Positions 5,201 through 19,164 of a DNA stretch of 64,000 nt are shown here, piece by piece. Source of the DNA: Planotetraspora mira (GTDB lineage: Bacteria; Actinomycetota; Actinomycetes; Streptosporangiales; Streptosporangiaceae); assembly GCF_016863275.1 (NCBI RefSeq), contig NZ_BOOO01000049.1, positions 1 through 64,000 on the forward strand. Direction: 5' to 3'. The position numbers and the translations under genes are program-made. Numbering within the stretch: position 1 is the first letter of the stretch; every line of letters begins with the position of its first letter. A model generated the notes under the pieces. That model saw nothing but the letters and a program-made list of their open reading frames with translations. It did not search any database and was not told the origin of the DNA.

Positions 5201-6031
5201 TCAGCGTGTGGCTTTGTAGGCGGACAGGACCACCGCGGTCGCGGCAGCGGGGTTGGACATCATCACGACGTGCGACGAGCGGATCTCACGGACCTTGCTG
5301 CCGGCGCGCTGGGCCATGAACCGCTGCACGGCCGGCGGGATCACGTTGTCCTGGGTGGGGATCAGGTACCAGGACGGGATGGTCTTCCAGGCCGGCTCGC
5401 CGCTGCCGCCGCTCAGGCCGTTGACGCTGCCGGGCCGCTGGGTGGCGGCCATCAGCCGGGTCTTGCTCTCGGGCAGGTCGGCGGCGAACACCTCGCGGAA
5501 CTTCTCGGCCCTGATGTAGCCGTCGATGCCGTTCATCGTGCCGTCGGGCAGCGGGTAGTGCCGCGCCAGCAGCGCGTCGCCCAGCTTGCTGCCCGGGAAC
5601 TTGTCGGCCAGTTGCAGGGCGCTTTCGCCCTGGTCGGGCGCGAAGGCGCCGAGGTAGACCAGGGCCTTGACGTTGTCGTGGCCGCGGGCGGCGTTGGTGA
5701 TGACGATGCCGCCGTAGGAGTGCCCGACGAGGATGATCGGGCCGGTGATGGTGTCCAGGATGCTGGAGACATAGGCGGCGTCACCAGCCACGTCGCGCAG
5801 CGGGTTGGACGGCGCGATCACCGGGAACCCGTCCCGCTGTAATCGGTCGATCATGTCGTTGAAACCGGAGGCGTCGGCGAACGCCCCGTGGACGAGCACC
5901 ACGGTCGGCTTCGCGGCAGTGGTTGTGGACTGCGCGGCCGAGGCAGGGGCGACGGTGGCGGTCAGGCCGAGTGCGAGAGTCAGGATGGCGAGGGCGAGCC
6001 TCAATCCGGGGCGGAGCCGGGTGCGGGTCAT
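5201..6031 (-). CDS. Secreted alpha/beta hydrolase
   Basis: 276 residues. It has an N-terminal signal peptide: an Arg-rich start, a Leu/Ala core and a likely cleavage after APASA near residue 32. The mature part opens TVVLVHGAFADASGF, has the nucleophile elbow VGHSYGG, and ends with an acid in PTQDNVIP and a His in IRSSHVVMM. This subfamily is typical of actinobacterial exported esterase-like hydrolases. It is a paralogue of the cytoplasmic hydrolase at 16071, which shares the HSYGG and PSWYL blocks. It is the first gene of a two-gene operon, with one 18-bp cluster element about 70 bases upstream. Confidence 0.87.
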   Translation of the reverse strand: MTRTRLRPGLRLALAILTLALGLTATVAPASAAQSTTTAAKPTVVLVHGAFADASGFNDMIDRLQRDGFPVIAPSNPLRDVAGDAAYVSSILDTITGPIILVGHSYGGIVITNAARGHDNVKALVYLGAFAPDQGESALQLADKFPGSKLGDALLARHYPLPDGTMNGIDGYIRAEKFREVFAADLPESKTRLMAATQRPGSVNGLSGGSGEPAWKTIPSWYLIPTQDNVIPPAVQRFMAQRAGSKVREIRSSHVVMMSNPAAATAVVLSAYKATR

Positions 6032-6100
6032 GGCGGGTTTCTCCTTGGATGCCCGTACTGTCGTTGCAGCACGAGCATCCGGGGCCCGCCGGTGGTATGA

Positions 6101-6118
6101 ATCGGTCAGTTGACTGCA
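6101..6118 (-). promoter_or_regulatory. Shared 18-bp element, copy 1
   Basis: Read on the minus strand this is TGCAGTCAACTGACCGAT, 70-87 bases before the secreted hydrolase start and overlapping the stop codon of the LAL regulator gene. Its core GTCA-NN-TGAC is an inverted repeat. Sixteen of 18 positions are identical to the copies at 8760 and 18263; only the two central bases differ. It is a probable binding site for a cluster regulator, or a shared promoter element. Confidence 0.65.
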
Positions 6119-8742
6119 TCTGCGGTCACCCCTTCGAGTGCGTCACGTAGTGCAGCCCGCGAGGTGATGCCGAGCTTGGGGAATATCCGGTACAGGTGGG
6201 CGCTGACGGTGCGGGATGACAGGAACAGCCGTTCACCGATCTCCTTGTTACTCAGTCCGGAGGCGGCCAGCCTCGCCACCTCCAGTTGCTGGGCGGTCAG
6301 GCCATGCGCGGCGTTGGGCCGCTGAGTCACCGCCACGCCGGTGGCCCGCAGTTCCTGCTCGGCCCGCTGCTGCCAGGCAGTCGCACCGACGCGGGCGAAC
6401 AGGTCGGCAGCCCGGCGCAGCTCGGGCCTGGCCTCGCCGGGTTGCAGTCGGCGGCGTTGCAACTCGCCCAGGGCCAGCCGTACCCGAGCGTGGTCGAACG
6501 GCCAGCGTTCGGTCCTCGGCAGCGCGAGCGCGGACCGGAACAGTGCGACCGCTTCGCCGGGCGGTGCCACCAGCGCCTGTGCGGCCCTGACGTGCAGGCG
6601 CAGCCGGGGTGCCCGCTCGGCCAGGTTCTCGGCCGCGGCGGCGTGCGCCCTGGCCTCCTCGATCCGGCCGGTGCGCACCGCCGATTCCACCAGATCGAAA
6701 ACCGCCCACGGCGCGTAGGCAACATATGGGGGGATGACGCCTGGTGGGCTGACGCTCGTCCAGTACGCGTAGGCGCTGTCGTAGTCACCGTGCGCCATCG
6801 CGGCGAGCGCGAGATTGCGGGCTGACAGGGACAGGTGCAGGCCGCTGCCGCGCGGCGCGGCCCACTGCTCGACGGTCTTGCTGTACTCCTTGGCGCTGTC
6901 GGCGTCGCCCCGGGCGGCGGCGAGCCAGCCGAGGCTGCAGCGCAGGTCGTGAGCCAGGAGGTCCAGGTCGTGGCGCACGCACAGGTCGAGTCCTGCGTTG
7001 GCTGCGTTTTCGGCGTCCTCCCATTCACCGGCCAGAAAATGGTCGTGCGCGGCGAGCCAGTAGCCACTGGCGGCGTGTGTCACCGCACCCCGACCGGTCT
7101 CGCCCTCGATCAGACCGCGGATGCGGTCCCGGTAGTCCGGCAGCAGGTCCATCCAGGTAGCCGCCCGGCACAGCGCGGCCACGCGCCCTGGCGGGGCGTC
7201 CGCAGGCAGCGCGTCGAGGGCGGTACGCACGAGCGTCGCCGAACCCCGGCCCAGGAACACGTCGTGCAGCAGGCGGACGAGGTCGTCGTCGCACCCGGTG
7301 ACCACGTCAGTGACTTCCGCCCATTCCTTCGGATCCTGCGTGTACGAGGCAGCCATCACCCTGACCAGAGGGCCCGCCGCTGGTGTGCCGCGCAGCAGGC
7401 GGCGCGCAGCGTCGAGATCGCCGTCGCGCAGCATGAGGATCTGCGCCCTGGTGGCCAGGGCCCTGGCCGGGTCGTCGAGGTAACGGCGCGCCTGGTCCAG
7501 CAGGTTCTGAGCCAGGTCGAGCTGCCCGGACTCGCTCGCCAGCTCGGCGGCGTGCTCCAGCCGCGCAGCGCGGGCCGGCGGGTCGGGGGTGAGGTCGGCC
7601 GCCCGCTGCAGCGCTTTGACCGCCAGCCCGGTGCCGCCCTTGAGACTCACCGCGCGAGCGGCCTTCTCGATCTCGGCCGCCACCCGTTCGTCCGGCTCCA
7701 CCGTAGCCGCCGCCAGATGCCACATGCGCTGCTCGGGATCGGCCTTGTGCTGCTCGGCCAGCACGGCGTGCGCCTCGCGCGTCTCCTCCGGCGAGGCCGT
7801 CTTGATGATCGCCGATCTGACCAGGGGGTGGCGGAACCGCAGGCCCGACGGGGTCGAGTCACGGGTGACCAGACCCGCCCGCTCGGCCTCCAGCAGCTCG
7901 TACGGCGACAGCTCGGCCCGATGCTCCAGCCGGTCACCGTCGAGGGCAGCCACCAGCAGCGTCGTACGGATCCGCGGCGGCAACTCCAGCAGCCGGCCCG
8001 CGAACCCGGTCTCCAGCCGGGTGCGCAGGGACGCGCCGCTGGGCAGCAGCTCCACGCCCACGGAGGTCTGCGGCAGCTCGATGATCGCCAGGGGATTGCC
8101 CGCGGCCTCGGCGAGCACGCGCTCGCGCACCGACGGTGGCAGGCCCGGGTGGAGCAGGTCCAGCAGCTGCCCGGCCGCCTCGTCGTCGAGCGGCCCGACC
8201 TCCTGCATGTGGATGCCCGGCGTGACGCGCTCGGTGGCCGTCAGCGGCCTGCGGGCGAAGACGGCCCGCGCGTCGTAGGGCTGCAGCCGTAACAGGATGA
8301 ACATCATCACCTCGCGCGTGGGATGGTCCACCCAGTGCGCGTCCTCCACGGCGATCAGCACCGGCCCGTCCTCGGCCACGGCCGCCATCACCGCCAAGGA
8401 CGCCACCGAGGTCGCCAGACGGTCGGGCGCCGGCCCGTCCCGCAACCCCAACGCCCGGCGCAAGGTGTCCCGGTGGAAGGGCTCCACCCGGTCCAGGTAC
8501 TCCATCACCGGTGCGAACAACTGATGCAGCCCGGCGAAGGCCAGCTGTGCCTCGGATTCGAAGCCACTGCCGCCCAGCACCCTGACGCCCTGCTGCCGGG
8601 CGTAGGCGACTGCGGCCTGCAACAGTGCGGACTTGCCCACGCCCGGGTCTCCGTGCAGCACGACGTTGGGCGGCACGCCGGGGGCACGGTCGATCGTCTG
8701 CCACAGCGAGGTCAGCTCTATGTTCCGTCCGATGATGTCCAC
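6106..8742 (-). CDS. LAL-type LuxR family regulator 1
   Basis: 878 residues. An N-terminal AAA/STAND ATPase has Walker A GDPGVGKS (31-38) and a Walker B-like VLIAVED (128-134). A long helical/TPR-like middle follows. The C-terminal LuxR helix-turn-helix (about 815-870) reads LSNKEIGERLFLSSRTVSAH. This is the MalT/LAL architecture, where ATP and an inducer control DNA binding. GTG start at 8742, preceded by AGGAGGAG. It is divergent from the hydrolase at 8811, with an 18-bp element between them, and its stop overlaps another copy, so it is the most obvious candidate to bind that element. The effector is unknown. Confidence 0.9.
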   Translation of the reverse strand: MDIIGRNIELTSLWQTIDRAPGVPPNVVLHGDPGVGKSALLQAAVAYARQQGVRVLGGSGFESEAQLAFAGLHQLFAPVMEYLDRVEPFHRDTLRRALGLRDGPAPDRLATSVASLAVMAAVAEDGPVLIAVEDAHWVDHPTREVMMFILLRLQPYDARAVFARRPLTATERVTPGIHMQEVGPLDDEAAGQLLDLLHPGLPPSVRERVLAEAAGNPLAIIELPQTSVGVELLPSGASLRTRLETGFAGRLLELPPRIRTTLLVAALDGDRLEHRAELSPYELLEAERAGLVTRDSTPSGLRFRHPLVRSAIIKTASPEETREAHAVLAEQHKADPEQRMWHLAAATVEPDERVAAEIEKAARAVSLKGGTGLAVKALQRAADLTPDPPARAARLEHAAELASESGQLDLAQNLLDQARRYLDDPARALATRAQILMLRDGDLDAARRLLRGTPAAGPLVRVMAASYTQDPKEWAEVTDVVTGCDDDLVRLLHDVFLGRGSATLVRTALDALPADAPPGRVAALCRAATWMDLLPDYRDRIRGLIEGETGRGAVTHAASGYWLAAHDHFLAGEWEDAENAANAGLDLCVRHDLDLLAHDLRCSLGWLAAARGDADSAKEYSKTVEQWAAPRGSGLHLSLSARNLALAAMAHGDYDSAYAYWTSVSPPGVIPPYVAYAPWAVFDLVESAVRTGRIEEARAHAAAAENLAERAPRLRLHVRAAQALVAPPGEAVALFRSALALPRTERWPFDHARVRLALGELQRRRLQPGEARPELRRAADLFARVGATAWQQRAEQELRATGVAVTQRPNAAHGLTAQQLEVARLAASGLSNKEIGERLFLSSRTVSAHLYRIFPKLGITSRAALRDALEGVTADAVN

Positions 8743-8759
8743 GTGGTTCTCCTCCTCGG

Positions 8760-8777
8760 TGCAGTCAGTTGACCGAT
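8760..8777 (+). promoter_or_regulatory. Shared 18-bp element, copy 2
   Basis: TGCAGTCAGTTGACCGAT lies in the 68-base region between the divergent LAL regulator (8742) and the alpha/beta hydrolase (8811). TTGACC within it could double as a -35 hexamer for the hydrolase. The identity to the copy at 18263 continues a few bases further on both sides (ggtgcagtca ... gattgccg). Confidence 0.65.
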
Positions 8778-8810
8778 TGCCGTGCTTCCGGATTGCGGCA
8801 TGCTGGGCGG

Positions 8811-9587
8811 GTGCCGCGGCTACAGGTGGGAACAGACGTGAACCTCTTCTACGAGGACGTCGGTGACGGGCCGCCCGTGGTCCTGGTACATGGCTGGCCC
8901 CTGTCGCGCCGGTTCTGGGAGCTCCAGATCGGCCCGCTCGTCGAGGCCCGCCGCCGGGTCATCTGCTACGACCGGCGTGGCTTCGGGCGCTCCAGCCAGC
9001 CCTGGCACGGCTACGACCTCGACACCTTCACCGCCGATCTGGCGGCTCTGATCGAGAGCCTTGACCTGACCGGGCTGACGCTGGTGGGCTTCTCCACCGG
9101 CTGCGCCGAGGCCGTCAGCTACGCCGCCGCATCCGAACGGGTGGCCAGGCTGGTGCTGGGCAGTCCGGTGCTGTATCCGGACCCGCTCGCGCACGAGCTC
9201 CGGACCGCCTCGAAGCGGCACCGCATCCCCATGCTCGACGATCTGCTGCTCAGGTTCTTCGCAGTCGACGGGCACAGCACGCTGGACGAGCCGACGCGCC
9301 AGTACCTGCTGCGGCAGGCTGCGGATGCCTCCCCCAAGGGAACCACCGACTCGCTGGCGGTGTGGGGCGCCGCCGACCCCTACCCCGAGCTGGCCCGCGT
9401 CACGGTGCCCACGCTGATCATCCAGGGCGAGGGGGATGCGTTCGTGCCCCCGGAGGACAGCGGAACGCGCGTCGCGCGGGCGGTCGCCGGCAGCTCGCTC
9501 GTGACGATTCCCGCCGCACCGCACGGTGCTCCGCTCACCCACTTCGAGCAGTGGAATGAGCTCATGCTGGAGTTCCTGGCGAGATGA
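8811..9587 (+). CDS. Alpha/beta hydrolase, chloroperoxidase/esterase-like
   Basis: 258 residues from GTG 8811. The frame also opens at a TTG at 8769, but that lies inside the 18-bp element and has no ribosome-binding site. The family pattern is clear: FYEDVGDGPPVVLVHGWP, DRRGFGRSSQPWHGYD, elbow GFSTG with Ser95, acid in QGEGDAFVP and His in AAPHGAP. This resembles cofactor-free haloperoxidases/aryl esterases. It is collinear with the hydrolase at 18343 (same Ser95 position), so the two are paralogues. It is divergent from LAL regulator 1 and probably under its control. Confidence 0.87.
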   Translation: MPRLQVGTDVNLFYEDVGDGPPVVLVHGWPLSRRFWELQIGPLVEARRRVICYDRRGFGRSSQPWHGYDLDTFTADLAALIESLDLTGLTLVGFSTGCAEAVSYAAASERVARLVLGSPVLYPDPLAHELRTASKRHRIPMLDDLLLRFFAVDGHSTLDEPTRQYLLRQAADASPKGTTDSLAVWGAADPYPELARVTVPTLIIQGEGDAFVPPEDSGTRVARAVAGSSLVTIPAAPHGAPLTHFEQWNELMLEFLAR

Positions 9588-9629
9588 CGGCACGCAGAGA
9601 CGGTACGTTCCGCGTGACGGACCCGGGTA

Positions 9630-12353
9630 TCAGTCGCGTGACGTATCTCCCAGGGCGTCGCGCAGTTGCGCCCGCGAGGTGATGCCGAGCTTGGGGAAGG
9701 CCCTGTACAGGTGAGTGCTGACGGTACGGTGCGACAGGTAGAGCTGCTGACCGATCTCGCGGTTGGACAGCCCGGCGGCGGCCAACCGGGCGATGTGCAG
9801 TTCCTGCGAGGTGAGCAGTTCGGCGGCAGGCGCGACGCGTAGGTCGCTCACCTCGCCCGCGGCCCGCAGCTCCTGGCGGGCCTTCTCGCCCCAGGCGAGC
9901 AGCCCGAGCACGTCGAAGGCGTCGCGGGAGGCCCGCAAGGGCACACGTGCTTCCTGGATCCGCCGACGGCGGCGCAGCCACATGCCGTGAGCGAGCAGCA
10001 GACGCGCCCTGGCGGTGGGCCAGCGCGACAGGTCGGCGCTCAACGCGTCCTGGTAGAGCGCCCCGGCGTCGGAGTCGTCGGCCAGCAACGCACGGGCGTG
10101 CCGGAGCCCCACGTGCAGCAGCGGGGACGGGGTACGGGCGGCCACCTGATCCAGCTCTGCCACCGCGCGCCTGGCCGGCTCCGGCCGGCCGGCCGCGACG
10201 GCGGCCTCGGCCAGCTCGCTGATCACCCACTGCCGCCAGATCCTGTGGTGGGCGGCGTCGCCCGGCTCGAACAGCCGCCACAGGTGCCCGAACGCGTCGT
10301 CGTGCCGCCCGGCGCACAACGCGATAATGCCCCGGGCATGCTGGAGCAACGCCACAACCGAGCTGATGGCAACGGTGCCGAGCACCCGCTCGCCCTCGGC
10401 GACCAGCGCCAGGCCGCGCTCCTCCTCGCCGCGGAGTCCGGCCAGCAGCGCCAGCATCCCCAGGGCGGTGGCCTGCCGGCGCGGCTGCGCGGTCTCGCGG
10501 GCCAGGCGTTCGGCCTCTTCCGCGCCCAGCAGCGCCCCGGCCCAGTCGCCGCAGAAGATCTGCCGCCACACCTGCGTGCTGAGCGCCCGCGTGAGCAGGC
10601 CCAGCCTGCCCTGGGCTCGCAGGTCTGCGATCGAGATCTCCATGAAGTCGCCGACGAGGTCGAAGGCGCCGACCGTACTCGCCGCGAGACCCAGCAACCT
10701 GGTCACGCCTCCGTCCAGCCGGGCGTCGCGCACCCTGGTCAGGCGCTCGATGACGTCCGCCCCGCGTTCCACCGCACCCGCCGTGGCCAGGGTGACCAGC
10801 AATTCCGGGTCGTCGTCGCCGGCCGCGAGCCGTTCGGCCAGGGCGATGACGCGGCTGCGCTGATCCCAGCCGGGATCGCTCCACCAACAGCGGATGGCCG
10901 CCGCACGGACGATGTTGAGCGCGAGTTCGCGGTCGCCCGCCGCCTCCGCCACTTCGGCCGTCATGACCAGCCGACGGACCCGCGCGGGGCCCTCGTTGCG
11001 TCCCTCGCCGAGCACCTCGCTCAGCAAGACGCCCCTGGCGCGCGGCAGCTCGCCGAGGAAGGACGGCTTCGCCAGCGCGAGCAGTTCGGCGGCCTGATCG
11101 CTGCGGCCGAGCTCGAAGGCCAGCTCGGCCGCGGCCAGCAGGCGGTGGGCGCCGGCTGTCGGTTCCTCGCTGACCTCCGCCGCCCGGCGCAGGGCGGTCA
11201 CCGCCACCGGGATCGCGCCGCGCTGCCGTGCCCGCGCGGCCACCTCCTCCAGTTCGGCGGCGACGGACTCGTCCTGGTGAGCGATCGCCGCGGCACGGTG
11301 CCATGCCCTGCGGTCCAGGTCGTGGCTGTGCACCAGGGCCAGCGCGGCGTGGGCGGCCATGCGATCGGTGCGGCCGGCCCTGTGGTAGATCGCCGAACGC
11401 ACCAGCGGGTGGCGGAAGCGAAGTGTCTGGTCGTGGAGCTCGACCAGGCCCGCGTCCACGGCCGGAGCCAGCGCCTCGGCGGTCAGCTCGGTGCCCGTCA
11501 CCACACTTCCGCCCGCGCAGGCGGAGGCCAGATCGTGTCCATCGTTGGCCGCGGCCACCAGCAGCATTCCTCTGGTGTGTGGCGGAAGCTCGGCCAGCCG
11601 CACGGCGAAGGCCTGCTCCAGGCGCGCGGTGAGCGGCAGGAACCCCGTCTCGTCCGTGATCCCGGCATCCAGCGCGAGTGGCAGCTCGACCAAGGCGAGC
11701 GGGTTGCCGGCCGCCTCGCTCAGCACGCGCCAGCGCATGCCGACGCTGAGCCCGGTGGCCTGGGCGTCCAGGAGCGCCTCGGCCGCGGCGGACTCCAGGC
11801 CGGTCAGCCGCAGCTCGGGGACATCGCTGGCGTCCAGGCTGGTGGGATAGCCGTCACGCAGGGCCATCAGGAGCACGATCGGATCCGATCGCACGCGCCT
11901 GGCCACGAATCCCAGCACCTCGGTGGTGGGTCCGTCCAGCCACTGGACGTCGTCCACCACGATCAGCAGGGGCCGTCGGGTCGCCGCGTCACCCAGCAGG
12001 TTGAGGACGGCCAGCGCGACCAGGAAGGGCTCGGGGTCGCCGACCTCGGCCATCCCGAAGGCACCGAGCAGGGCCTCGCGCTGACGAGTAGGCAGCTGAT
12101 CGGCGGCGCCGAGCATCGGCCGCAGCAACTGGTGGAGCCCGGCGAAGGGCAGATGTGTCTCGCTCTGCACCCCGGAAGCGGTGGACACCAGCAGATCCCG
12201 GGCCTCGGCCCGCTCCGTGGCGACGGCCAGCAGGGCCGACTTACCGATCCCCGGCGCTCCGCGTACGACCAGAGCGTCTCCGCGCTCGTGCACGCGGTCC
12301 ACGAGCCCTGCGAGTTTCGCGACCTCGCGCTCGCGCCCGAAGAGCCTGATCAC
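9630..12353 (-). CDS. LAL-type LuxR family regulator 2
   Basis: 907 residues with the same architecture as the protein at 6106-8742. Walker A is GAPGIGKS (32-39), Walker B-like PLLIVVDDVQWLD lies around 128-142, there is a long helical middle, and the C-terminal LuxR helix-turn-helix reads LSNREIGQQLYLSHRTVSTH. The last 50 residues are very close to regulator 1 (FPKLGITSRA in both), so the two may recognise related DNA. It is divergent from the esterase at 12477; the 123-base gap holds GTCA and TGACCGA half-sites (12401-12420) with wider spacing than the 18-bp element. It ends 42 bases from the convergent hydrolase. Confidence 0.9.
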   Translation of the reverse strand: MIRLFGREREVAKLAGLVDRVHERGDALVVRGAPGIGKSALLAVATERAEARDLLVSTASGVQSETHLPFAGLHQLLRPMLGAADQLPTRQREALLGAFGMAEVGDPEPFLVALAVLNLLGDAATRRPLLIVVDDVQWLDGPTTEVLGFVARRVRSDPIVLLMALRDGYPTSLDASDVPELRLTGLESAAAEALLDAQATGLSVGMRWRVLSEAAGNPLALVELPLALDAGITDETGFLPLTARLEQAFAVRLAELPPHTRGMLLVAAANDGHDLASACAGGSVVTGTELTAEALAPAVDAGLVELHDQTLRFRHPLVRSAIYHRAGRTDRMAAHAALALVHSHDLDRRAWHRAAAIAHQDESVAAELEEVAARARQRGAIPVAVTALRRAAEVSEEPTAGAHRLLAAAELAFELGRSDQAAELLALAKPSFLGELPRARGVLLSEVLGEGRNEGPARVRRLVMTAEVAEAAGDRELALNIVRAAAIRCWWSDPGWDQRSRVIALAERLAAGDDDPELLVTLATAGAVERGADVIERLTRVRDARLDGGVTRLLGLAASTVGAFDLVGDFMEISIADLRAQGRLGLLTRALSTQVWRQIFCGDWAGALLGAEEAERLARETAQPRRQATALGMLALLAGLRGEEERGLALVAEGERVLGTVAISSVVALLQHARGIIALCAGRHDDAFGHLWRLFEPGDAAHHRIWRQWVISELAEAAVAAGRPEPARRAVAELDQVAARTPSPLLHVGLRHARALLADDSDAGALYQDALSADLSRWPTARARLLLAHGMWLRRRRRIQEARVPLRASRDAFDVLGLLAWGEKARQELRAAGEVSDLRVAPAAELLTSQELHIARLAAAGLSNREIGQQLYLSHRTVSTHLYRAFPKLGITSRAQLRDALGDTSRD

Positions 12354-12476
12354 GCGCCACCTCCCGCCGGAGCGCCATGATCAAATTGTGGCACAAGTAC
12401 GTCATGTTACGAATGACCGAGGTCTTGACTACTCCTTAGCATCAGCAGTGCCTCGCATCAGCCCGTGGAGCGGTCA

Positions 12477-13397
12477 ATGATCAAACCCGTCCTGGAACCG
12501 GCTGCCCAGGCCTTCGCCGATGCCACCACCGGCCCTCCGTACCTGCACAGCATGCCGCTCGAAGTGGGCCGCCGGGCGCTGGCCGAGGTCCAGTGCCCGG
12601 ACATCCGCGTGCCAGGCGTCACCCGGCAGCCGATCGAGGGGACGAGGCTCACCGTCTTCCGCCCCGAGAACACCGCGGGCCTGCTGCCCGCGGTGCTCTA
12701 CCTGCACGACGACTGGGTGTTCGGCGGCGAGCACGCCCACGGGCGGCTGGCACGCGAACTGGCCTCCGAGTCGGGGGCGGCGACAGTGTTCGTCGACTAC
12801 AGTCTCTCGCCCGAGGCCCGCTACCCCGTCGCGCTCGGCGAGGGGGAGGCGGCGCTGGACTGGATACGCGCGTACGGCGGCGCCTGCGGCCTGGACGCCT
12901 CGAGGATCGCGGTGGCCGGCGGCAACCTGGCCGCCGCGCTTGCCCTGACCGCCCGTGGGCGCCTGGCCGCGCAGATGCTGCTGTGCCCGGCCACCGACGC
13001 GTCCTGCGACACCGCCTCCTACCGTGAGTTCGCCGAGGGCTATTTTCTGCGCGCCGACGGCATGCGCTGGTCCTGGGACCAGTACACCGTGGACGAGGTA
13101 CAGCGCGACGAGATGACCGCCTCGCCGTTGCGGGCCACGGCGCACCAGCTGGCCGGGCTGCCGCCGGCCCTGGTCATCACCGCCGAGGCCGACGTGCTGC
13201 GGGACGAGGGCGAGGCCTACGCCGCCAACCTACGGCGAGCGGGCGTGCCCGTGACCTCAGTCCGCTACCAGGGCGTCATCCACGGGTTCCTCACGCTCAA
13301 CGCCCTGCGCGGCACCCATGCCGCCCAGGCGGCGATCGATCAGGCCGGACACTTTCTGGCGCGGGCGCTCGACCCTGACAACAGGAGGCAGTCATGA
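12477..13397 (+). CDS. HSL-family esterase homologue lacking its nucleophile
   Basis: 306 residues from ATG 12477, with GGAG six bases upstream. The fold is that of hormone-sensitive-lipase-type acetyl esterases: VFVDYSLSPEARYP, a late Asp in TAEADVLRD and a His in GVIHGFLTLN are intact. The usual oxyanion HGGGW is replaced by HDDW (77-80). The elbow normally written GDSxGG is missing: the protein reads IAVAGGNLAAALAL (from residue 144), as if four residues including the serine were deleted in frame. It is therefore probably not a hydrolase; it might be a binding protein or early decay. The 3' end is duplicated at 16.8 kb. It is divergent from LAL regulator 2. Confidence 0.82.
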   Translation: MIKPVLEPAAQAFADATTGPPYLHSMPLEVGRRALAEVQCPDIRVPGVTRQPIEGTRLTVFRPENTAGLLPAVLYLHDDWVFGGEHAHGRLARELASESGAATVFVDYSLSPEARYPVALGEGEAALDWIRAYGGACGLDASRIAVAGGNLAAALALTARGRLAAQMLLCPATDASCDTASYREFAEGYFLRADGMRWSWDQYTVDEVQRDEMTASPLRATAHQLAGLPPALVITAEADVLRDEGEAYAANLRRAGVPVTSVRYQGVIHGFLTLNALRGTHAAQAAIDQAGHFLARALDPDNRRQS

Positions 13398-13435
13398 CGC
13401 CGAGATTCTCGCCGATGGTGGAGACACAGACGTAG
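13394..13435 (+). pseudogene. 13-codon leftover after the esterase
   Basis: An ATG overlaps the esterase stop (ATGA) and is preceded by the ribosome-binding site acaacaggaggcag. The frame stops after 13 codons (MTPRFSP...). The same ribosome-binding site, in the duplicated copy, drives the transporter at 16977. This suggests that a downstream cistron was replaced here by unrelated DNA. Confidence 0.35.
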
Positions 13436-13503
13436 CCGGTGCGGATCTTGCTGGGCGGGCGGAGAAGGCTGCGAGTGGGATCCGCGGTGAGGTCCAGAGG
13501 CGT

Positions 13504-13530
13504 GATCAACATCGCCGGAGGTTGTTGATC
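13504..13530. terminator. Weak hairpin after the esterase
   Basis: GATCAACA (13504-13511) pairs with TGTTGATC (13523-13530) around an 11-base loop. There is no T-run. It may end the esterase transcript before the XRE/NB-ARC gene. Confidence 0.3.
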
Positions 13531-13655
13531 CACCGAGATTGTTGAAGGAGTATTGAAGGCCCCTACGTCGTCTCATGTCGTCCGAGCGGCATCCTTCACG
13601 AACGCCTGTTTTGAAGCCTCGCAAATGATGGGTACACCGGCCTTCCACGCAAGCT

Positions 13656-15956
13656 TTGTGTGATCTCCACCAGATCGCGGAGAAGGAGCACCCGATCACC
13701 ACCCCATCCAGCTTCGCGGAAGCGCTGCGTCGCCATCGGCACTCGGCCCGGATGACGCTGGAGCAGCTCGCCGAGGCCTCGGGGGTCAGCGACCGGACGC
13801 TGTCGGACATGGAACGCGGACGCAGCAGGGGCCCCCAGCACCGGACCGTCACCGCACTGGCCGACGCCCTCGGCCTGGCTGACGCCGACCGCAAACAGCT
13901 TGTCGAGCTGGCGCGCGTGGGCCGCCTGCGTGACCACTGGAACCGTCAGACCGGGCTGTGCGAGCTGCCCCGCTCCGTCGACGACTTCACCGGCCGAGCC
14001 GCGGAACTGGCCTGGACCAACGAGCTGGTGCACGCCGGCAACGCGCCGGGCGTCGCCGGCGTGGGGCTCATCACCGGCTCTGCCGGGCTGGGCAAGACCA
14101 CGTTGACAGTCCGCGCCGCCCACGCCCTGCGGCCGGACTTCCCCAACGGGGTGTTCTTCCTCGACCTGTTCGGCATGTCCCCGCAGCCCCTGCCCGTCGA
14201 CGAGGCCCTGGGCATGCTGCTTCGCGCTCTCGGAATCGCAGATCAGCAGATCCCGGGCGACGTCACCGGGCGTGTGTCCTTGTACCGGTCGCTGCTGCGC
14301 GAGCGGCGCGTGCTGGTCGTGCTCGACAACGCCGCCTCCGAGGAACAGGTCCGGCCGCTGCTGCCGGGCGGCGGCGCGGGCAAAGCCCTGGTGACCAGCC
14401 GCCGCCTGCTGGCCGGTCTGGAAGGAGTACGCAGACTCAGCCTCGGGCCCTTGCCCCTGCTGGAGGCCACCGAACTGCTGACCGAGATCCTGAAAGACCG
14501 CGGCGCCTCGGACGAAGGATCGGCCGTCTGGCAGCTCGCGCAGCTGTGCGGCGGTCTGCCCCTCGCGCTGCGGATCGCCGGAAATCGGTTGGTCAGCCGG
14601 CCCGGATGGAACGCCGCCGACCTCGCCGTCCGGCTGACGAACGAGGAGCACCGCCTGGACCAGCTCAGCGCCGGCGATCTGAAGATCGCCACCGCGTTCG
14701 GCTTGTCCTACGAGCAGCTGGCGGACTCGACGCAGCGGGTCTTCCGCCGGCTCTCCCTGGTGCCGGGTCGCAACTTCGACGCCGCTCTCGCCGCGGTGGT
14801 GGCCGGTAGTGCATCGGCCGAGGGGGCATGGGACGCCCTCGACGAACTCGTGGACCTCGGCCTGCTGCAGGACAACATGTCGGGACGCTACCGTTTCCAC
14901 GACCTGGTCCGGCTGTTCGCCCGCGACCGGCTGCACGCGGAGGAGTCCGAGGCCGACCGCGAGGCGGTCACCGTGACGGTGACGTCGTGGCTGCTGCGGA
15001 TGGCCACCACCGCAGGGCGGTGGTTCGAACCCGCCTACAGTCCTTCCGACCGACCTGACATCGGCCTCGCCGACCTGTCCTCCCCGGAGAAGGCCGACCA
15101 CTGGCTGCGCGCCAATGTGGACAACTGGCTGGGCGCATTACGCCACGTGGCGAGCATCGGCCGGTTCGCCGCCGTCCTCGACTGCACCGAGTCGATGCAC
15201 TGGTTCTCCGACCGCTGGATGCAGGCGCCACATTGGCACGAGGTCTTCACCCTCGGTGCCGAGGCCGCCGCCGCCCTGGGCGATCCGGCCCGGCAGGCCG
15301 CGCAGCTCAACTTGCTGGCCTGGGTCCATCTGGTGCCGCGAGAGGACCTGGAGACCACACTGCGGTACGCAGCCCAGGCGATCGACCTGGCCACCCGCAG
15401 TGGCGCCACGGCGCAGATCGCCCTGGCCCACCACAACGCGGGGGGCGCGCTTCGAAGGCTCGGGCGGCTGGAGGAGGCCATTGCGGCCGAAACCCAGGCG
15501 GCGGAGATGTTCAAGGCGAGCGGCGACATCGATCGGTACGGCCAGTGTCTCGGCGCCCTCGGCACCTGCCTTCGCGATGCCGGACACCACACCGAGGCAC
15601 TGGAGCAATACCTCGATCTGTCGGCCCTGCTGAACGACGACCGGTCGGGGATGACGCCGAGCGTCGCAGCGTTCACCCGGCCGATCGCGCTTGCCCGCGT
15701 CGGCGAATGTCTGGGACTGCTCGGCCACCGGGCCGAAGCGATCATCAAGCTCACCGAGGCGATCGGCCTCATGGAGCAGGCTCAATTACCCGTCCCGCAG
15801 GCCCACTCCCTGGAAACGCTGGCGGCCTTGCTGGCCGAGGAGGGCCGGACCGGCGAGAGCCGCCATGCCTACGCGCGGGCGGCCGAGGTGTACGAGGCCA
15901 TCGACGACGCCGAGGCGAGCACCCGCTGCCGCGACCTGGCGAACGCCGCACCCTGA
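13656..15956 (+). CDS. XRE/NB-ARC/TPR transcriptional regulator
   Basis: Up to 766 residues. In order: an XRE helix-turn-helix (about 20-75, LEQLAEASGVSDRTLSDMER), an NB-ARC ATPase with Walker A GSAGLGKTT (141-149) and Walker B RRVLVVLDNA (about 206-215), a winged-helix linker, and a C-terminal TPR region. This is the AfsR/SARP-regulator body without a SARP domain, common in actinomycetes as a STAND switch. The start is uncertain: the TTG at 13656 has no good ribosome-binding site, while ggagaaggag sits ideally before an ATC codon at 13695. It lies upstream of the hydrolase at 16071 on the same strand, its likely target by position. Confidence 0.88.
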   Translation: MCDLHQIAEKEHPITTPSSFAEALRRHRHSARMTLEQLAEASGVSDRTLSDMERGRSRGPQHRTVTALADALGLADADRKQLVELARVGRLRDHWNRQTGLCELPRSVDDFTGRAAELAWTNELVHAGNAPGVAGVGLITGSAGLGKTTLTVRAAHALRPDFPNGVFFLDLFGMSPQPLPVDEALGMLLRALGIADQQIPGDVTGRVSLYRSLLRERRVLVVLDNAASEEQVRPLLPGGGAGKALVTSRRLLAGLEGVRRLSLGPLPLLEATELLTEILKDRGASDEGSAVWQLAQLCGGLPLALRIAGNRLVSRPGWNAADLAVRLTNEEHRLDQLSAGDLKIATAFGLSYEQLADSTQRVFRRLSLVPGRNFDAALAAVVAGSASAEGAWDALDELVDLGLLQDNMSGRYRFHDLVRLFARDRLHAEESEADREAVTVTVTSWLLRMATTAGRWFEPAYSPSDRPDIGLADLSSPEKADHWLRANVDNWLGALRHVASIGRFAAVLDCTESMHWFSDRWMQAPHWHEVFTLGAEAAAALGDPARQAAQLNLLAWVHLVPREDLETTLRYAAQAIDLATRSGATAQIALAHHNAGGALRRLGRLEEAIAAETQAAEMFKASGDIDRYGQCLGALGTCLRDAGHHTEALEQYLDLSALLNDDRSGMTPSVAAFTRPIALARVGECLGLLGHRAEAIIKLTEAIGLMEQAQLPVPQAHSLETLAALLAEEGRTGESRHAYARAAEVYEAIDDAEASTRCRDLANAAP

Positions 15957-16070
15957 CAGTGTCCGCGCTACTTCTGCGTCCTGTTCTTCGTGGCCGGGCC
16001 GCGTGCGCGCGGCTTCGATGGAGTGCACCGGGACAGGCATCGGGCCTGTCCCTCCAGATCAGGAGCAACC

Positions 16071-16751
16071 ATGACAAGCATCAGGAACATCGTGCTCGTG
16101 CACGGTGGCTTCGTGGACGGATCCGGCTGGCAGGGCGTCTACGACGAGCTGACCAGGGATGGGCTCCGCGTCCACATCGTGCAGAACCCGACACTGTCGC
16201 TGGAGGATGACGCCGCTGTGACCCGCCGGGTCCTGGACGGCCTCGACGGCCCGGCCATCCTGATCGGCCACTCCTACGGCGGGGCCGTCATCAGCGAAGC
16301 CGGCACCCACCCCAACGTCGCGGCGCTGGTGTACATCGCCGCCTTCGCCCCCGACAAGGGCGAATCGGTCAACACGCTCATCGCCGACCCGCCGCCCGGG
16401 ACGCCGGTGCCGCCCATCCTGCCCCCGCGCGACGGCTTCCTGTTCCTTGACCGCGACAAGTTCCACGGATCGTTCGCCGCCGACCTGCCCCCGCAACTGG
16501 CCGCGTTCATGGCCGACGCCCAGGTCCCCTGGGGCGTCGACGCCCTCAACGGCGCAGTCACCGAACCGGCCTGGCGGCACAGGCCCAGCTGGTACCTGGT
16601 CGCGACCGAGGACCGCATGATCCCGCCGCCGGCCCAGCGCGCCATGGCAGAACGCGCCGGATCGTTCGTCGTCGACGCGATCGGCAGCCACGCCGTCTAC
16701 GTTTCCCAGCCCGCCGCGGTCGCCGACCTCATCCGCCAGGCAGCCGCCTGA
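16071..16751 (+). CDS. Alpha/beta hydrolase
   Basis: 226 residues from ATG 16071, with aggag eight bases upstream. No signal peptide. It has IVLVHGGFVDGSGW, the elbow IGHSYGG (Ser68), an acid in ATEDRMIP and a His in IGSHAVYVS. It is close in sequence to the secreted hydrolase at 5201-6031 (shared HSYGG, IAAFAPDKGES-type and PSWYL blocks) but lacks the export signal, so the pair looks like cytoplasmic and exported versions of one enzyme type. It lies 114 bases behind the XRE/NB-ARC regulator. Confidence 0.87.
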   Translation: MTSIRNIVLVHGGFVDGSGWQGVYDELTRDGLRVHIVQNPTLSLEDDAAVTRRVLDGLDGPAILIGHSYGGAVISEAGTHPNVAALVYIAAFAPDKGESVNTLIADPPPGTPVPPILPPRDGFLFLDRDKFHGSFAADLPPQLAAFMADAQVPWGVDALNGAVTEPAWRHRPSWYLVATEDRMIPPPAQRAMAERAGSFVVDAIGSHAVYVSQPAAVADLIRQAAA

Positions 16752-16795
16752 CGACGTCCGCCCTCGCGCGCTCGGATACCGGTCGCGTCCAGCCG

Positions 16796-16961
16796 GACAG
16801 AGGGCGAGGCCTACGCCGTCAACCCGCGGCGGGCGGACGTGCCCGTGACCACAGCCAACTGCCAGTCAGCCATCCACGGATTTCTCACGCTCAACGCCCT
16901 GCGCGGCAAGGCGGCGATCGATCAGGCCGAACGCCTTCTGGCCCGGGCGCTCGGCCCCTGA
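16796..16961 (+). pseudogene. Duplicated 3' fragment of the 12477 esterase
   Basis: The DNA repeats the end of the esterase gene (about 13199-13393). It encodes EGEAYAVN, IHGFLTLNALRG, AAIDQAERLLARAL and then TGA, with about 80 percent identity by eye and a small internal deletion. The repeat includes the stop region and the ribosome-binding site acaacaggaggcag that now serves the transporter at 16977. It has no start codon, so it is not a gene. It records a segmental duplication or insertion event in this cluster. Confidence 0.75.
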
Positions 16962-16976
16962 CAACAGGAGGCAGAC

Positions 16977-18275
16977 ATGACAAGCAGACCGGTGACCAAG
17001 GCCGCCGTCATCGGCACCGCGCTCGAGTTCTACGACCACGCCCTCTTCGGACTGGGAGCGGCGATCGTCTTCGACAAACAGTTCTTCCCGGCCGGCCAGC
17101 CTCTCGCGGGCACCCTCGGCTCCTTCGCCGCGTTCGCGGTCGGATTCCTGGCCCGTCCCATCGGCGGTGTCGTGCTCGGCCACTACGGCGACCGCGTCGG
17201 GCGCAAGCCCATGCTGGTCTTGACGCTGCTGCTGATGGGACTGTCCACGGTCGGCATCGGGCTGCTGCCCACCTACGATCAGGTGGGCATGGCGGCGCCT
17301 GTCCTGCTGGCGCTGCTCCGGCTGGCGCAGGGTTTCGGCGCGGGAGCCGAGTACGCGGGCGCCCTGGTCATGGTGGCCGAGAGCAGTGACCCCCGCCGGC
17401 GGGGCCTGTGGGCCTCGCTTCCCGGCGCGGGCGTCCAGATCGGCATCCTGACCGCCACGCTCGTCTTCACCGGGGCCGCGGCGCTGCCGTCGTTCGAGAC
17501 CTGGGGCTGGCGCTTGCCGTTCCTGCTCAGCCTCGTGGGCGTGGGCGTAGGACTGTTCCTCAGGTTCCAGGTGCAGGAGTCGGAGCTCTTCGAGCGCGAG
17601 CGTGCGCGCGGCTTGAGCCGCTTCCCGGCGCTGGAGGTCGTCAGGAGGCAGCCGCGGATCCTGCTGATCGCCTTCGCGGCCAATGCTCCCTTCGGCGCGA
17701 TCGCCTACATCCTGAATGTCTTCATGTTGTCATACGTGACCAGGACGCTCGGCCTGCCGGCCACGGTGGGTCTGGTCGCCAAACTGCTCGCCGCCGCAGT
17801 GGCGATCGCGGTCACGCCGCTGTTCGGGCTTCTGGCCGACCGCGTCGGCCGTCGTCCCGTCTTCCTCAGCGCCGCGCTCCTGCTCGGCGTGTTCGCCTTC
17901 CCGATGTTATGGCTGGTCGACACCGGTCACCCCGCATTGGTGATCCTCGCTGTCACGGTGGGTTACGGCGTCTGCGTCGCCGGGATGTTCGCCGTGCTGG
18001 CCTCGATGTTGACCGAGCTGTTCGACACCCGCTACCGCTACAGCGGCGTCGCGATCGCCCGCGAGTGGACGGCCGCGCTGACCAGCGGCCCCGCCCCGCT
18101 CGTGGCGGCAGCCCTTGTGGCGGGCGCCGGTGGAGCGTCTTGGCCCATCGCCCTCCTGCTGGTGGTGTGCGCGGCGATCACCTTCACCGCCGTCCTTTTC
18201 GCTCCGGAAACCCGCCATCGGAACCTGACCGAAGTCGTGAGCGAACCGGCGTTCCGTACGGGTGCAGTCATCTGA
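16977..18275 (+). CDS. MFS transporter, metabolite:H+ symporter type
   Basis: 432 residues, about 12 hydrophobic segments. The MFS loop motif is seen as [11 protein letters not shown] (about residue 62) and again as [10 protein letters not shown] (about 282); the N-terminus reads [17 protein letters not shown], as in the MHS family (ShiA, KgtP, ProP relatives). Such carriers import organic acids or compatible solutes with protons, so uptake of a carboxylated substrate or of hydrolase products is plausible but not shown. Its ribosome-binding site comes from the duplicated esterase tail. The stop codon overlaps the third 18-bp element. Confidence 0.88.
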
Positions 18276-18280
18276 CCGAT
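18263..18280 (+). promoter_or_regulatory. Shared 18-bp element, copy 3
   Basis: TGCAGTCATCTGACCGAT overlaps the transporter stop codon and lies 63-80 bases before the haloperoxidase-like gene at 18343. The GTCA-NN-TGAC core is kept and the flanks match copy 2 (ggtgcagtca, gattgccg). An operator or promoter for 18343 is the simplest reading. Confidence 0.65.
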
Positions 18281-18342
18281 TGCCGCCGAGCGCCGCGGAT
18301 CTAGCGTCGAGCCCATCGACACCCATCCGAAAGAGACGTGAA

Positions 18343-19164
18343 ATGCCCTACGTGAGCGCCGCCGACGGCACACAGATCTTCTACAAGGACTGGGGCAGTG
18401 GTCATCCCATCGTGTTCAGCCATGGATGGCCGCTGAACGCCGACGCGTGGGACAACCAACTCCATCTGGTCGCCTCCCACGGCTGGCGCGCCATCGCCCA
18501 CGACCGTCGCGGCCACGGCCGCTCCAACCAGCCGTGGCACGGCAACGACATGGACACCTACGCCGACGACCTGGCCGCCCTGCTGGACACGCTCGACCTT
18601 CGCGACGTCGTGCTGGTCGGGCACTCCACCGGCGGCGGCGAGGTGACCCGCTACATCGGCAGGCACGGCAGCGCCCGTGTGGCCAAGGCCGTGCTGCTGG
18701 GTGCGGTCCCGCCACTGATGCTCAGGACCGACGCCAACCCTCACGGGTTGCCGATCGAGGAGTTCGACCGCATCAGGGCCGGGGTCGCAGCCGACCGGTC
18801 CCAGTTCTACAAGGAGCTGGCCGTCCCCTTCTACGGTTACAACCGGCCAGGCGCGCAACCGTCGCAGGGCGTCATCGACGCCTTCTGGCTCTGGAGCATG
18901 CAGGTGGGCGTCAAAGGCGCGCTCGACTGCATCAAGGCCTTCTCCGAGACCGACTTCACCGAGGACCTCAAGCGCTTCGACGTCCCCACGCTGATCGCGC
19001 ACGGGGATGACGACCAGATCGTGCCTATCGTCGCCTCCGCGTTGGAATCAGCTCAGCTCGTCAAGGGCGCCACCTTGAAGATCTACGAGGGTGCCCCGCA
19101 CGGCTTGGCGGGTGCCTTCGAAAGTGACTTCAACGACGACCTGCTGGCGTTCATCACCCGGTAA
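18343..19164 (+). CDS. Cofactor-free haloperoxidase / arylesterase-like hydrolase
   Basis: 273 residues from ATG 18343 (gagacgtgaaATG). It opens [18 protein letters not shown], the hallmark of bacterial non-haem chloroperoxidases. [10 protein letters not shown] forms the oxyanion region, [20 protein letters not shown] is the family block, Ser95 sits in GHSTGGG, Asp in HGDDDQIVP and His in GAPHGLAG. These enzymes act as esterases/perhydrolases using peracetic acid chemistry; the natural substrate is unknown. It is a paralogue of 8811-9587, and both have an 18-bp element upstream. A strong hairpin follows at 19319. Confidence 0.9.

Follow-up and report, generated by a model that had tools for sequence, protein, structure and literature searches.

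What protein, if any, reads an 18-bp element that stands with invariant arms before three hydrolase genes of one actinobacterial gene cluster? We analysed positions 1 to 64,000 of contig NZ_BOOO01000049.1 of Planotetraspora mira (RefSeq assembly GCF_016863275.1), a stretch of 64,000 nucleotides called the window below. The element, TGCAGTCANNTGACCGAT, occurs there at 6101-6118 on the minus strand and at 8760-8777 and 18263-18280 on the plus strand. The three copies precede alpha/beta hydrolase genes that we call H1, H2 and H3, close to two genes for large LuxR-type ATPase regulators of the LAL family, LAL1 and LAL2. An earlier note on this DNA had proposed that the element is the operator of a dimeric LuxR-type regulator and defines a small regulon inside the cluster, and the evidence below fits that proposal. 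We consider it very likely that the element is an operator to which LAL1 binds through its LuxR-type domain, as would a wide actinobacterial group of LAL proteins, with activation of class II type. The basis of this reading is the sequence itself, its conservation, its linkage to LAL genes, the spacing to a promoter-like hexamer and a pile-up of start codons.

Results

The element is not a chance repeat

A rescan recovered the three copies, TGCAGTCAACTGACCGAT before H1, TGCAGTCAGTTGACCGAT between the divergent LAL1 and H2 genes and TGCAGTCATCTGACCGAT before H3, on the strands and at the positions that the earlier note had given. They agree at 16 of 16 fixed bases and have AC, GT and TC as their central pairs. 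The element has the form of an 8-2-8 imperfect inverted repeat, with dyad symmetry and two half-sites, C.GTCA-NN-TGAC.G, in all three copies. A whole-genome scan found exactly these three copies in 9.03 Mb, all within the cluster, and only two near-matches elsewhere, each with two mismatches; many scattered copies, which the earlier note had named as a sign against its operator, are not seen.

Base composition of the window predicts about 1e-5 exact copies per 64 kb and 0.0015 per genome. With up to three mismatches allowed, the window holds four matches, the three exact copies and a next best with three mismatches, against a mean of 0.47 in shuffled sequence, and none of 100 shuffles reached four. 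Shuffles, base composition and genome scan together rule out a chance repeat. Taken by itself, the bare core GTCANNTGAC does not reach significance in the window (three matches against 1.2 expected; 14 of 100 shuffles reached three), so the significance of the element derives from the full 16 bases.

The element has a fixed place in a promoter-like architecture

Exactly 21 nt downstream of each of the three window copies there begins a -10-like hexamer, NANNNT, whose defining bases are A at position 2 and T at position 6. It reads GATGCT before H1 (6074-6079, minus strand), CATGCT before H2 (8799-8804, plus strand) and TAGCGT before H3 (18302-18307, plus strand), and from this spacing we predict start points at about 6067, at 8811 and at about 18314. 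A hexamer 21 bases after the element would place the dyad centre at -42.5, the position of the lux box, with the operator spanning -51 to -34 relative to the predicted start points.

The spacing recurs well beyond the window. A hexamer lies 21-23 nt downstream in 36 of 37 cluster and Streptomyces copies, grouped by hand, and in five of the eight scorable among nine further actinobacterial copies. Cluster sites show the spacing in 31 of 32 cases, against a mean of 2.1 at control offsets. For sites at LAL loci, taken within the 1-3.6 kb read beside each match and with each site context counted once, the figure is 30 of 35, against a mean of 2.9 at eleven control offset triples. When LAL proteins are grouped at 60% identity, every one of the 15 groups, two of which involve the LALs of the window, has at least one hexamer-spaced site. 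Orienting 29 sites by their hexamer gives the consensus nnCAGTCAnnTGACnGAt, with A at position 17 (28/29) and at position 4 (23/29), both outside the search core.

Start codons point to the same register. A hexamer at -12 to -7 would make a start codon 6 nt downstream a leaderless start. Of 86 oriented sites, 11 have an ATG exactly 6 nt behind the hexamer, compared with 0-3 at every other offset in the range 0-29, and ATG and GTG combined peak at offset 6 with 23. Hexamer and leaderless start codons together give a predicted centre of -42.5 or -43.5. The distances from element to start codon in the window are 69 bases for H1 (ATG 6031), 33 for H2 (GTG 8811) and 62 for H3 (ATG 18343). Before H2 (8799-8813), CATGCT is followed by six bases and then by GTG 8811, and the orthologue in L105 has an ATG there. 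Because of the leaderless pattern and this orthologue we prefer 8811, where H2 probably starts without a leader, to the alternative GTG 8838, which is preceded by a Shine-Dalgarno-like sequence.

The TTGACC or CTGACC within the element might instead be the plain -35 box of a strong promoter, as the earlier note had asked, with the palindrome incidental to it. TGAC does look like a piece of a -35 hexamer, and a -10-like hexamer follows it downstream. However, 24 bases separate YTGACC from the hexamer in the window copies, where plain sigma-70 promoters have approximately 17; conservation extends to the distal half CAGTCA, which lies outside any -35 box; and the rest of the genome has no full site. 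On the spacing we reject an ordinary -35 box, an explanation of the element that we regard as highly improbable.

Besides the three sites of the window, the genome has 17 core sites. The 15 of these that were read show no peak of -10-like hexamers (four at offsets 21-23, both sides counted) and are probably chance matches or sites of other factors. Tandem operators 28-37 bp apart stand beside some LAL genes (L128, L186, L208, L124), and may serve cooperative binding or two promoters.

The element is conserved and follows a regulator family rather than hydrolases

An exact scan of genome contigs yielded 87 stretches, which were sorted by hand, from their record titles, into 46 actinobacterial loci (50 copies, one of them cut off and 49 scorable) and 41 others (41 copies). 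LAL matches of at least 80 bits (tblastn with the LALs of the window) occur at 28 of the 46 actinobacterial loci and at none of the 41 others, and open frames with a LuxR-type helix-turn-helix (HTH) pattern at 19 of 46 and none of 41. The hexamer geometry, likewise, is present at 38 of the 49 scorable actinobacterial copies and at 6 of the 41 non-actinobacterial ones. The non-actinobacterial copies have the pattern of chance matches and provide a control.

In Nonomuraea, Streptosporangium, Sphaerisporangium, Planobispora, Actinoplanes and Yinghuangia, copies precede homologues of H1, H2 or H3; the element is conserved in orthologous clusters, where the earlier note had taken a lack of conservation as the other sign against its proposal. 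In six Streptomyces records the element precedes a gene for a metallo-beta-lactamase-fold protein (identified by eye), and a LAL frame lies on its other side in five of the six, the sixth stretch ending too soon. Over the sites outside the window as a whole, the genes behind it, also judged by eye, encode metallo-beta-lactamase-fold, short-chain dehydrogenase/reductase (SDR)-type, FAD-monooxygenase, transporter and LAL proteins. The element is not confined to hydrolase genes, with which the earlier note had linked it, and a hydrolase-specific signal is ruled out. Since such varied gene families follow the element, it tracks the regulator family and not hydrolases.

An extra copy in Nonomuraea thailandensis (L037:6778-6795) lies about 2.1 Mb from the main cluster of that genome; by eye the sequence that follows it resembles the start of H3, and tblastn did not find H3 behind this copy.

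Operator and hexamer can also be searched as one composite pattern. CAGTCANNTGACNGAT-N22/23-ANNNT has 17 matches in 296 genomes, three of them those of the window, and its reversed control has none. By eye, the genes behind the 14 other matches encode one alpha/beta hydrolase, four SDR- or epimerase-type proteins, one FAD monooxygenase, a metallo-beta-lactamase-fold protein, a transporter, a LAL, an FtsH-like ATPase and two small secreted proteins, with two unclear frames. A LAL gene lies within about 8 kb in 7 of the 14, and some of these sites are probably chance. The two small secreted proteins behind composite operators (L319, L323), a label given by eye, are related to each other, and no LAL was found within about 8 kb of either.

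The element keeps company with LAL1

LAL1 (6106-8742, minus strand, 878 aa) and LAL2 (9630-12353, minus strand, 907 aa) have the features of LAL/MalT-type regulators: an N-terminal P-loop ATPase, a C-terminal GerE (LuxR-type) HTH and a size of about 900 aa. The Pfam models AAA_16 and GerE score above gathering threshold in both, and their translations contain the Walker A motifs GDPGVGKS (LAL1) and GAPGIGKS (LAL2). The earlier note had called their DNA-binding ends nearly identical, which overstates a 70% identity (43/61 residues).

A protein search matched LAL1 at 1e-120 or better in 34 of 250 genomes of the family, its own included. All five full-length matches of at least 68% identity outside the window have the element before LAL1, with 0-1 mismatch. 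Three genomes are especially informative about which regulator goes with it: G152, G254 and G157 retain LAL1 and the element, and in the 20 kb read have no orthologues of LAL2, of the XRE protein or of the major facilitator superfamily (MFS) transporter beside LAL1 (the LAL2-like match in G254 is weak, at 30%, and the LAL-like fragments of G152 form a separate pair). This persistence makes LAL1 the constant partner of the element.

The operator could still belong to another regulator of the cluster, either the XRE/NB-ARC/TPR protein encoded at 13656-15956 or LAL2 alone, with LAL1 a mere neighbour. Both proteins are present in several related clusters, and the DNA-binding end of LAL2 is related to that of LAL1 over the 61 residues compared. 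The three genomes just described speak against this assignment, as does the occurrence of the palindrome near LAL genes of 13 further groups. An XRE protein or LAL2 as sole binder is less parsimonious than LAL1, and we think this alternative unlikely. Of the two LALs that the earlier note had offered as candidate binders, the LuxR-type class is supported and LAL1 is the most likely; we prefer it to LAL2 because it stays with the element where a LAL2 orthologue is not adjacent.

LAL genes found without the motif often have it nearby

Linkage was also examined in the opposite direction, from regulator to site. The LAL1 protein search supplied 30 LAL loci (L102-L131), the window's own included. 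In 15 of them the exact core CNGTCANNTGACNG is no farther from the LAL gene than 450 bp upstream or 250 bp downstream, and ten of these 15 are only 38-44% identical to LAL1. In a second LAL set, drawn from 296 genomes of the class, 8 of 17 non-window LALs have the core within the locus fetched.

A third set came from a search of 197 class genomes with the DNA-binding end of LAL1. It comprises 80 loci, the best 60 and 20 hand-picked lower ones, and leaves out the two of the window and one match to a 108-residue frame (G167, contig 11); it shares some genes with the two earlier sets, includes five loci of this genome, and contains two pairs of overlapping stretches. By rank of similarity the core occurs in the flanks of 5 of the best 20, 2 of the next 10, 0 of 10, 1 of 20 and 0 of the last 20, that is, in 7 of the 30 most similar loci versus 1 of the other 50. 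The LAL gene bodies of this set, 209 kb in all, contain no core match.

Near 28 LALs chosen by the recognition helix T[VI][SG][SAT]HL, GTCA-N2-TGAC ranked first of 1560 gapped palindromes. It is present at 14 loci where 2.1 would be expected (p 5e-8), and the runner-up has p 1e-4. The exact core occurs near 7 of these 28 and near 1 of the 52 others (Fisher p 0.002, an exploratory value because the helix rule was picked after the flank counts and leaks).

Observations that weigh against the operator reading

Several results count against the reading of the element as a position-fixed LAL operator. Concerning geometry, the A2/T6 rule was drawn up on the cluster copies and then tested on others; the H3 copy of L006 has no hexamer and appears to pass directly into coding sequence; no hexamer follows the copy that precedes LAL1 in G152; and 11 of the 49 scorable actinobacterial exact copies are without it. 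Among the start codons, 6 of the 11 ATG cases at offset 6 come from one orthologous Streptomyces group, and ATG/GTG also peak at offsets 1 (16) and 21 (11), peaks that look like the conserved leaders of orthologous H1 and H2 genes.

Others concern linkage. The cluster is patchy, and four other genomes of the genus have neither a LAL1 match at 1e-120 nor an exact element. A sixth, partial LAL1 match (G036, 87% over 248 residues) is without the core in the stretch read. This genome has 16 related DNA-binding ends, and the core is absent from all ten of its other LAL loci that were read (5 + 5). LALs with the helices TVGYHLY, TVGHHLYK and TVASHLYK also lie near such sites, so that the helix rule leaks, and in the flanks read 21 of the 28 LALs with the favoured helix are without the exact core and 14 of 28 without GTCA-N2-TGAC. 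Half of the composite sites outside the window (7/14) have no LAL within about 8 kb, although some LALs may have escaped the finder and a contig end clips one stretch.

Genes and sites of the window

H1 (5201-6031, minus strand) matches Abhydrolase_6 in Pfam, and its N-terminus resembles a signal peptide by eye. H2 (8811-9587, plus strand; open reading frame from 8769) and H3 (18343-19164, plus strand; open reading frame from 18262) match Abhydrolase_1. No NCBIfam model reaches its cut-off for any of the three hydrolases; enol-lactonase models give H2 and H3 their best partial matches.

Two operator copies, found like the other by pattern scan, overlap the stop codon of the gene upstream, as the earlier note had observed. 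LAL1 ends in the stop codon 6106-6108, and the MFS transporter identified by domain models (16977-18275, plus strand) in 18273-18275; these two codons form the TGA of copies 1 and 3, a compact overlap of gene end and predicted promoter. The position of copy 1 is kept in L033, L053, L065, L081, L082 and L092; judged by tblastn ends, its overlap with the LAL1 stop recurs in L033, L082 and L092 and not in L065 and L081. Copy 2 is supported by conservation in addition to the pattern scan.

The protein at 13656-15956 combines XRE HTH, NB-ARC and TPR domains, and in its ATPase/TPR part it is similar to AfsR and HaaT models, with scores under their cut-offs. A 791-aa protein with DUF4132 and DUF7737 is encoded at 149-2524.

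Discussion

How might the element work? The mechanism that we infer involves protein binding, activation, a role for ATP, a small-molecule inducer and a damping of LAL1 through copy 2. A LAL1 dimer would bind the 8-2-8 inverted repeat through its LuxR-type HTH, and LAL2 may bind as well. At -51 to -34, centred on -42.5, the operator would adjoin the region contacted by RNA polymerase, and the activated regulator could recruit polymerase as LuxR does, by class II activation, at the three hydrolase genes. The inducer may be a small molecule, possibly an ester or a lactone that the hydrolases use as substrate. Copy 2 lies directly before the LAL1 ribosome-binding site, so its occupancy could damp LAL1 itself.

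The opposite sign of regulation, with a LAL protein repressing through the operator, has some precedent in SCO6993, a Streptomyces coelicolor LAL reported to be a repressor (PMC9628970), and copy 2 does adjoin the LAL1 ribosome-binding site. The geometry, however, is that of an activator: the centre falls at -42.5 or -43.5 with a fixed spacing to the -10 hexamer, and repressor sites would not need such fixed spacing across many LAL groups. We hold repression to be improbable and class II activation the better account.

More symmetric forms of the operator, NNCAGTCA-NN-TGACNGAT, would serve a wide group of other actinobacterial LALs whose genes adjoin them. We suggest that CAGTCA-N2-TGACNGAT at -42.5 or -43.5 is a general operator, set in a promoter architecture of fixed spacing, for a large actinobacterial clade of LALs with few known sites. 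This broader proposal seems likely to us, with less assurance than the reading of the element itself.

LAL regulators are numerous in actinobacteria, with 14 putative members reported in S. coelicolor (PMC3282765), and several are named controllers of antibiotic clusters. If the proposal is true, operator, spacing and type of recognition helix would make LAL regulons, with their hydrolases, SDRs, monooxygenases and transporters, readable from genome sequence. A shared, position-fixed operator would supply a testable rule that names regulator, target promoters and start points, and would offer a class II promoter module for high-GC hosts.

How does this operator compare with known systems? NarL shares the GerE-type HTH, and the relatives of the LAL1 HTH with solved structures include NarL chains, but NarL is a two-component response regulator and its sites differ in sequence from the element. 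AlkS is counted as a LAL. It is a LuxR/MalT-type activator of alkane degradation whose target promoters are preceded by the 20-bp inverted repeat that it recognises (PMC8784404), and resembles the proposed LAL1 system as an activator of catabolic genes with an inverted-repeat operator upstream; it differs in being proteobacterial and in responding to n-alkanes, and its operator, described as homologous to LuxR-family operators, is likened here by description. MalT, the LAL prototype, has the same N-terminal ATP-binding domain and C-terminal LuxR-type HTH (PMC9628970, PMC6099782), but binds short boxes, GGA[TG]GA, in direct repeat and not an 8-2-8 inverted repeat.

The actinobacterial proteins TpdR, SCO6993 and IniR are, like LAL1, ATP-binding regulators with a LuxR-like HTH (PMC6099782, PMC9628970, PMC5760070). 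The site proposed for TpdR is a 15-nt direct repeat (PMC6099782), and SCO6993 is described with palindromes that have no common consensus, the consensus being stated to be unpredictable (PMC9628970). The searched text on IniR mentions no palindrome, inverted repeat or binding site (PMC5760070), and for the Gdm regulators the recognised sequences are said to need elucidation (PMC6784220). Among the papers listed by text searches for half-site strings and LAL operators, in a body of literature that holds few subscription papers, none showed this operator.

A further likeness is to the lux box, 20 bp long and described as centred at -42.5 (PMC4471428). The lux box is a palindromic site for a LuxR-type HTH protein, as the element is proposed to be, and the predicted centre of the element in the window falls at the same -42.5. 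The element differs in its GTCA-NN-TGAC core and its 18 bp, and in a probable reader that is a large ATPase regulator instead of an acyl-homoserine-lactone receptor.

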